DNA of 64,000 bases from Kribbella albertanoniae (GTDB lineage: Bacteria; Actinomycetota; Actinomycetes; Propionibacteriales; Kribbellaceae). Below, piece after piece: positions 1-6,965 of the stretch. The stretch is from NCBI RefSeq assembly GCF_004348455.1, contig NZ_SMKA01000011.1, positions 1 to 64,000 on the forward strand, written 5' to 3'. The position numbers and the translations under genes are program-made. The number at the start of each line of letters is the position of its first letter. The first letter of the stretch is position 1. Below the pieces are notes generated by a model. It saw only the letters and a list, made by a program, of their open reading frames with translations, was not told the DNA's origin and ran no database searches.

Positions 1-57
1 CCTCCGAGATCTACACAAGGCTATTCGTCGGCAGCGTCAGTTGTGTATAAGAGACAG
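1..57 (+). other. Illumina Nextera i5 adapter left in the assembly (not genomic)
   Basis: Bases 4-16 match the end of the Illumina P5 oligo (CCGAGATCTACAC). Bases 17-24 are an 8-nt index (AAGGCTAT), bases 25-38 are TCGTCGGCAGCGTC, and bases 39-57 are the Tn5 mosaic end, with one mismatch at base 41 (T for A). Base 3 is a second mismatch to the oligo. The order P5, index, read-1 primer, mosaic end is exactly that of a Nextera library molecule, so this is adapter read-through at a contig end. The biological sequence starts at about base 58. That the adapter identity is from memory of the published oligo is the only limit here. Confidence 0.97.
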
Positions 58-72
58 CCGTCATCCCGGTCA

Positions 73-122
73 CAACGTCCGAAAATCCGAACACCAGGCG
101 CGCGTGCGTCCTTCGGACGTTG
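73..122. repeat. Perfect 11-bp inverted repeat
   Basis: The arm CAACGTCCGAA (73-83) is an exact reverse complement of TTCGGACGTTG (112-122), with a 28-nt spacer. It may be a terminator stem for a gene lost beyond the contig end, a regulator site, or the terminus of a repeat that broke the assembly. There is no T-run to favour the terminator reading. Confidence 0.6.
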
Positions 123-190
123 CCGGTACGGCGCTCTGCTGCGCCCCGTGCAGGTGAGCCGGGTGTACTGCAGTCACCAACTGGGGGCTT

Positions 191-240
191 GAACAGGAAC
201 TGGTGGGCGTGCACAGGTCATTTCCTGTTCAGACCCACCA
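191..240. repeat. Interleaved inverted repeats with pseudoknot topology
   Basis: GAACAGGAA (191-199) pairs exactly with TTCCTGTTC (222-230), and TGGTGGG (201-207) pairs exactly with CCCACCA (234-240). The two pairings cross rather than nest, which is the topology of an H-type pseudoknot in RNA or of two overlapping dyads in DNA. It lies about 130 nt upstream of the regulator start at 371. The loop between 230 and 234 is only 3 nt, which would strain a pseudoknot, so a DNA operator is equally possible. Confidence 0.5.
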
Positions 241-370: not shown

Positions 371-925
371 ATGGATGAACCTCGGACCGCGGATCTGCGG
401 GCGATGAAGGTGTTGGCGCACCCGATTCGTCAGCGGATCCTCAGCGAGCTGCAGCGGGGTGGTGAGGTCACGTCCACCACGTTGGCCCACAAGCTCGGTG
501 TGACGACGGGTAACACCAGCTACAACCTTCGGGTGCTGGCTGAGCATGGCTTCGTCGAGGAGGTTCCGGGCCGAGGCAACGGCCGGGAGCGGTGGTGGCG
601 GGGCAGTGTTCAGGATCTGCGGTTCCCGCGGCACAGCGAGCAGGGCGAGGCGATGCGGGCCGTGTTCCAGGAGTTCAACAACCTGGCGCTGGCTGAGGAC
701 GAGGAGGCGCTACACCGGTTCCTGCGACGGCGGGACGAGCTCGGCCCGTGGGCCGACGCCCTGCCGTTCTCCCGGGGCACTGTCAACGTCACGCTCGGCC
801 AACTGGAGGAGTTCTTCGAGGAGTACATCGCGCTGCTCATGAAGTACGCGGACAGCACCAACGCCCCGGACGCACGCTCGGTCCGGGCCTACTTCCTGGC
901 GTTCCCGGAGGTGCCGTCCGACTGA
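371..925 (+). CDS. ArsR-type helix-turn-helix transcriptional regulator
   Basis: The 184-residue protein has an N-terminal winged helix (about residues 5-70) with the ArsR/HTH_20 pattern: LAHPIRQRIL, then a recognition helix in TTGNTSYNLRVL, then a wing that ends in GRERWWR. The C-terminal 100 residues are helical and acidic and match nothing I can name; they probably serve dimerisation or ligand binding. No metal-binding cysteine pair is visible, so metal sensing is unlikely. The frame is open to a TTG at 335, but the ATG at 371 places the usual family N-terminus correctly, although no strong ribosome binding site precedes it. It lies 103 nt upstream of the N-acyltransferase-like gene on the same strand and is its most likely regulator. 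Confidence 0.85.
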   Translation: MDEPRTADLRAMKVLAHPIRQRILSELQRGGEVTSTTLAHKLGVTTGNTSYNLRVLAEHGFVEEVPGRGNGRERWWRGSVQDLRFPRHSEQGEAMRAVFQEFNNLALAEDEEALHRFLRRRDELGPWADALPFSRGTVNVTLGQLEEFFEEYIALLMKYADSTNAPDARSVRAYFLAFPEVPSD

Positions 926-5494: not shown

Positions 5495-6955
5495 ATGACC
5501 ACCATCGACTCGACGGTCTTCACGACCGAGACCATGACGGTGCCCGGGGGATCCGAGACGATCCTCCGCGGCGGCCGCGACCTGTTCCCGCTGCTCCCCG
5601 CGGCCTTCCACGGCATCCAGCGGATCGGCGTCCTCGGCTGGGGCCCGCAGGGCCGCGCCCAGGCCCTCAACCTCCGCGACTCGCTCGCCGGGACCGGCAT
5701 CACGGTCTCGGTCGGCCTCCGCGCCGGCTCGACCTCGGCTGACGACGCCCGCGCCAACGGGTTCACCGAGGAGGACGGGACACTCGGCGAACTGCTGAGC
5801 GTCGCGGCCGCCTCGGACCTGGTGATCCTGCTGATCGCCGACGCCGCCCTGGCCGCCCAGCACGAGACGATCTTCCAAGCGTTGAAACCCGGCGCCACGA
5901 TCGGCCTGTCGCACGGCTTCCTGCTCGGCCACCTGCAGGCCACCGGCCAGGACTTCCCGCCCGGCCACCCGGTGATCGCTGTCTGTCCGAAGGGCATGGG
6001 CGATTCGGTACGGCGTCTCTACCAGCAGGGCGCGACGGTCAACGGTGCCGGGATCAACGCGAGTATCGCGGTCCACGCCGACCCGGACGGGCATGCGACC
6101 GACCGGGCACTGGCGTGGTCGGTCGCCCTCGGGTCGCCGTACACGTTCGCCACCACGTTGTCGTCCGAGTACCGCTCGGACATCGTCGGTGAACGGGCGA
6201 TCCTGCTCGGCGCGGTCCACGGCCTGGTCGAGGCGCTCTACCGGTACTTCCGGCTCGAAGGGGCCGACCCGATCACGGCGTACGAGCGGTCCACCGAGGC
6301 GGTGACCGGGCCGATCGCACGGACGATCTCGGCCGCCGGACTACCCGCCGTACGGGCTGCTTTGTCCGGTGCGGACCAGGATCTGTTCGATCGTGCCTAC
6401 AGCGCGACCTACCAGCCTGCTCGCGATCTGGTCGCCGAGATCTACGATGAAGTTGCCGAGGGCACCGAACTCCGCAGCGTCATCCTGGCCGAGAGCCGCC
6501 TGGCCACCCGGCCGATGACCGCGATCGCGGGCAGCGAGATGTGGTCGCACAGCGCCGAGGTGCACGCCCGCCGAGGCGCGACGACAACCATCGACCCCGT
6601 CACCGCCGGGCTCTTCGTTGCCACGATGACAGCCCAGGTGGACGAATTCGCGGCCCGCGGTCATGTCTGGTCGGAGATCGTGAACGAGTCGATCATCGAG
6701 GCCGTCGACTCACTGCTCCCCTACATGCACGCCCGCGACGTCGCCTACATGGTCGACAACTGCTCCCGCACCGCCCGCCTCGGCACCCGGCGCTGGGGCC
6801 CCCGCTTCCAGGCGGCCTACGAACAGCTAGCCCTGCCCGCCCTCGCCAACCCGGCTGACCCGAAGGCCATCGAGTCCTTCCTCCACAACCCCGTCCACGA
6901 AGCCCTCGCCGTAGCCGCCGAGCTCCGCCCCTCAGTCGACATCTCCGTCACCTGA
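5495..6955 (+). CDS. ilvC: Ketol-acid reductoisomerase, long class II, plant-like
   Basis: This enzyme makes 2,3-dihydroxy-isovalerate (or -methylvalerate) from acetolactate or acetohydroxybutyrate with NADPH in branched-chain amino acid synthesis. The protein has 486 residues, the class II length; typical actinobacterial enzymes are class I, about 340. The Rossmann loop is GWGPQG (48-53). Metal and acid residues appear as Asp229 and Glu233 (SDIVGER) and Glu398 and Glu402 (NESIIE). Long stretches follow the spinach chloroplast enzyme as I remember it: LRGGRDLFPLLP, GLSHGFLLGHLQ, VIAVCPKGMG, NGAGIN, MHARDVAYMVDNCS, ELRPSVDISVT. It is divergent from ilvY and ends at a strong terminator. The only SD-like sequence (AAAGG) is very close to the ATG; an in-frame ATG at codon 14 is an alternative. 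A class I copy probably exists elsewhere in the genome. Confidence 0.95.
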   Translation: MTTIDSTVFTTETMTVPGGSETILRGGRDLFPLLPAAFHGIQRIGVLGWGPQGRAQALNLRDSLAGTGITVSVGLRAGSTSADDARANGFTEEDGTLGELLSVAAASDLVILLIADAALAAQHETIFQALKPGATIGLSHGFLLGHLQATGQDFPPGHPVIAVCPKGMGDSVRRLYQQGATVNGAGINASIAVHADPDGHATDRALAWSVALGSPYTFATTLSSEYRSDIVGERAILLGAVHGLVEALYRYFRLEGADPITAYERSTEAVTGPIARTISAAGLPAVRAALSGADQDLFDRAYSATYQPARDLVAEIYDEVAEGTELRSVILAESRLATRPMTAIAGSEMWSHSAEVHARRGATTTIDPVTAGLFVATMTAQVDEFAARGHVWSEIVNESIIEAVDSLLPYMHARDVAYMVDNCSRTARLGTRRWGPRFQAAYEQLALPALANPADPKAIESFLHNPVHEALAVAAELRPSVDISVT

Positions 6956-6965
6956 GACAGCAGAG

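Follow-up and report, generated by a model that had tools for sequence, protein, structure and literature searches.

Features at the start of contig C22

The window, i.e. the whole stretch of DNA that was analysed (64,000 nt), corresponds to bases 1–64000 of contig C22 (81,052 nt) in the Kribbella albertanoniae assembly, which comprises 593 contigs with a total length of 9.73 Mb. Since the window starts at the first base of the contig, its own base 1 represents a genuine contig end. The first plausible gene (about 371–925, plus strand) encodes a winged-helix regulator (PF12840, E-value 7.8e-13). The following features were delineated upstream of it:

1–16, plus strand: final 16 nt of the Illumina P5 / i5 index primer, ccTccgagatctacac, base 3 being T where the primer has A (alignment; oligonucleotide in PMC8225968, PMC11620474)
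17–24, plus strand: i5 index AAGGCTAT, corresponding to the Nextera XT v2 primer S520 (alignment, primer tables; also on contigs C204 and C35)
25–38, plus strand: read-1 tail (14 nt) of the Nextera transposase adapter, TCGTCGGCAGCGTC (alignment)
39–57, plus strand: Tn5 mosaic end (19 nt), AGaTGTGTATAAGAGACAG, base 41 being T where the oligonucleotide has A (alignment)
11–214, minus strand: spurious ORF of 67 aa, with the first 52 codons in repeat DNA and the rest in the adapter, ending in ...VSYTQLTLPTNSLV (translation)
58–334, no strand: genuine genomic intergenic DNA with two dispersed-repeat modules, about 57–190 and 175–266 (genome self-matches, paralogue comparison)

Bases 1–57 read CCTCCGAGATCTACAC AAGGCTAT TCGTCGGCAGCGTC AGTTGTGTATAAGAGACAG. 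Their alignment to the Nextera i5 oligonucleotide (reference: the last 16 nt of P5 followed by AAGGCTAT, TCGTCGGCAGCGTC and AGATGTGTATAAGAGACAG) requires no gaps and matches 47 of the 49 constant bases, the sole departures being T for A at base 3 and T for A at base 41, exactly the two mismatches listed in the preliminary description. The arrangement proposed there, i.e. P5 end, 8-nt index, read-1 primer and Tn5 mosaic end, was likewise confirmed: P5, the index, TCGTCGGCAGCGTC and the mosaic end are contiguous and follow one another in library order. The index belongs to the kit catalogue and is given as the i5 primer S520 in two primer tables (PMC8225968, PMC11620474). The segment thus exhibits the same order of parts and the same sequence as the Nextera / Nextera XT v2 i5 adapter (S520 primer plus transposase adapter), from which it differs only in the two bases mentioned and in the absence of the first 13 nt of P5. 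The G+C content of bases 1–57 is 51%, compared to 67% for the window.

The minus-strand ORF shows no match in Pfam. The peptide SYTQLTLPT, previously noted in this frame, is indeed present, with one refinement: the oligonucleotide as manufactured encodes SYTHLTLPT, and the glutamine appears because the mismatch at base 41 turns CAT (His) into CAA (Gln). Neither version of the peptide was found in print in the set of papers searched. The earlier suggestion that any gene call in 1–214 is an artefact holds insofar as no real gene was found there; however, only bases 1–57 are foreign, while 58–214 represent a genuine intergenic repeat.

Bases 57–258 have matches at about 60 further genomic locations, and a similar number of matching places was found for the dispersed intergenic repeat as a whole (58–266). 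The first module of the repeat contains an inverted repeat, AACGTCCGA...TCGGACGTT, and often occurs in tandem, while the second comprises a strong predicted hairpin (z-score -3.65). A 1-kb query matched somewhere in 26 of the 38 genomes of the genus, with most of these genus-level matches falling into the second module; the search of Rfam returned no family for the repeat. Many of its copies lie near contig ends, hence it probably breaks the assembly.

Origin of bases 1–57 and the junction with the genome

Comparison of paralogous copies of the first repeat module within the genome revealed that their homology to contig C22 runs from base 58 onward. The 30–40 bases upstream of that point are mutually similar among the paralogues (roughly ctcctgtccgatgtgtgggtgattTG, with CCGTC beyond the boundary), and in contig C22 the place of this upstream sequence is occupied by the mosaic end. 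The combination of homology from base 58 and divergence upstream of it allows the junction to be placed between bases 57 and 58 independently of sequencing reads, and at the level of sequence comparison we take it as established that the genome resumes at base 58.

We regard it as virtually certain that bases 1–57 are an untrimmed i5 adapter of the Nextera (Tn5 tagmentation) type, carried into the assembly. That an adapter had been left untrimmed at the contig start was already proposed in the preliminary description, and the proposal is now backed by the match to the oligonucleotide with a catalogue index, by the location at the very end of contig C22, where the mosaic end is directed towards the insert, by the homology that starts at base 58, and by the occurrence of similar remnants at other contig ends and in unrelated assemblies (see below). 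While the identity of the adapter and the position of the junction follow directly from these comparisons, the series of events can only be reconstructed. Tn5 would have cut the genome between bases 57 and 58 and attached the mosaic-end adapter, whereupon PCR would have added the S520/P5 primer. Given an insert of less than the read length, the read would have run through into the adapter, and from an untrimmed copy the assembler may have continued the contig into the adapter sequence. The contig ends at this point since no other sequence follows on from the adapter, and a second reason is probably that the adjoining genomic DNA is a many-copy repeat. Adapter sequence at a contig end is a known kind of artefact, i.e. 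laboratory contamination that includes no bacterial DNA.

As the mosaic end derives from the natural ends of Tn5, the possibility that the 19-bp motif is a natural outside end, and bases 1–57 the edge of a genuine Tn5/IS50 transposon in the chromosome, deserves consideration, the more so that the T at base 41 happens to coincide with the base of the natural outside end at this single position. However, the motif as a whole differs from the synthetic mosaic end by one mismatch and from the outside end by two, i.e. it is nearer to the former. Moreover, it continues into the synthetic read-1 tail, a catalogue index and P5, none of which is carried by any transposon; within the genome it recurs only at contig ends, and in its sister copy on contig C204 the corresponding position is occupied by a different base. 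Past the 19-bp end, neither a transposase gene nor further insertion-sequence DNA is present, the remaining sequence being only the synthetic i5 primer, up to the end of the contig. A natural transposon end was therefore rejected, on the grounds of the synthetic i5 parts beyond the motif and its recurrence solely at contig ends, and we consider it extremely improbable. The idea that the segment is native genomic sequence that resembles the oligonucleotide by chance can be given even less credence, verging on none: about 4e-21 occurrences in the window would be expected by chance for a segment with at least 47 of the 49 fixed bases matching, dinucleotide shuffles of the window yielded no match to the mosaic end, and the paralogous repeats have other sequence upstream of the position that corresponds to base 58. 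Finally, index hopping or carry-over could have introduced the adapter of a different sample from the same run, while the genomic DNA attached to it would still be that of this strain. This scenario appears very unlikely, since no indexes other than S520 and one consistent with N714 were observed, these two being found on several contigs of one genome, and the DNA from base 58 onward belongs to the genome's own repeat family; in any case, it would still mean that bases 1–57 are an adapter.

Adapter remnants in this and other assemblies

The search of the genome for the mosaic end with up to 3 mismatches allowed identified eight copies, every one at a contig end. Apart from that on contig C22, they are found on C61, C204, C349, C35, C156, C160 and C580, in all cases within about 55 nt of the contig end. 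None of the copies remaining in the assembly is exact. A ninth remnant, which contains a one-base insertion, is located less than 100 nt from the end of C303. The index AAGGCTAT occurs also on C204 and C35, and its last four bases are found on C156. On the i7 side, the tail on C580 is preceded by TCGTGAGC, one base away from N714 (TCATGAGC), while the exact i7 tail on C303 is preceded by GAGC, i.e. the last four bases of N714; the remnants on C61, C349 and C160 do not extend far enough to include an index. The readable indexes fit one i5/i7 pair across the assembly, and since those on several contigs agree with S520 and N714, the library was most likely indexed with these two primers, a combination found in Nextera XT v2 set C.

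The region of C303 at approximately bases 6901–6958 is peculiar: past the i7 tail and the four index bases, it shows about 15 consecutive T residues (in the adapter orientation) and about 39 nt of other sequence, and it resembles a low-quality read tail or a chimera.

The 33-mer of the transposase oligonucleotide is found also in many other assemblies of isolates, metagenomes and viruses, where other catalogue indexes precede it, and lies within 100 nt of the edge of the locus in 121 of the 126 genome matches and 119 of the 120 viral matches among those listed. In an even sample of the phylum, 22 of 396 genomes carry the mosaic end with at most 2 mismatches, many of the copies being exact and terminal; no match was found in E. 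coli complete genomes. Phage and plasmid records yielded 41 and 5 matches, respectively, Klebsiella plasmids being among the latter. In phage records H7, H8, H10, H18 and H19, adapter-like sequence underlies annotated genes (portal protein, hypothetical proteins, tail fibre). Genome G233 contains exact mosaic ends inside large contigs and, twice, a back-to-back inverted pair of mosaic ends (C7:116809-116846 and, with one mismatch, C5:34334-34371), suggesting that fragments were joined through the adapter, i.e. that these contigs are chimeric. A related case is the contamination of contig ends of MGnify genomes described by Moeller et al. 2024 (PMC11536531), in which a sequencing adapter was likewise left at the termini of draft-assembly contigs, the difference being that the adapter there was of the TruSeq type and here it is of the Nextera type.

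The biological interest of bases 1–57 is close to nil, and the implications concern data hygiene only. Trimming is needed for bases 1–57 and for no fewer than eight further contig ends of the assembly, and any protein call with SYTHLTLPT or SYTQLTLPT at a contig end is best regarded as derived from an adapter. Once trimmed, some contigs might be rejoined, as has been reported for other databases (PMC11536531).

The central mismatch and the survival of imperfect copies

Two remnants, those on C22 and C204, comprise the whole 33-nt transposase oligonucleotide with a single mismatch, which in both falls at the exact centre (base 17), with different letters. Under random placement, both mismatches would be central in about 1 case in 1,100. 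Copies mismatched at the centre are what would survive a filter that requires an uninterrupted match longer than 16 bases, so that exact-match screening could yield a predictable residue; we put this forward tentatively and consider it rather doubtful. The position of the mismatch only suggests that the copy on C22 escaped trimming or screening because of it, while the removal of longer exact matches by filtering is a reasonable guess, made post hoc and from two copies. The remnant on the i7 side of C303, however, has an exact run of 22 bases (the 15-nt i7 tail plus AGATGTG, counted by eye) before its one-base insertion, which weakens and in part contradicts the idea of a 16-base limit.

A mismatch at the central base was also considered as a common surviving form of the adapter and rejected, as the normal A is found in 125 of the 126 genome matches and in all 120 viral matches among those listed. 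With the normal A nearly everywhere in the sample, the form with the central mismatch appears peculiar to this assembly or to its filtering. The mosaic-end copies that remain on the contigs of this genome each have at least one difference, whereas exact copies occur in most of the contaminated assemblies sampled. Genome G375 is another assembly that keeps imperfect copies of the adapter only: each of its ten listed matches to the mosaic end contains precisely two mismatches, and several are found no more than 45 nt from the start of a contig.
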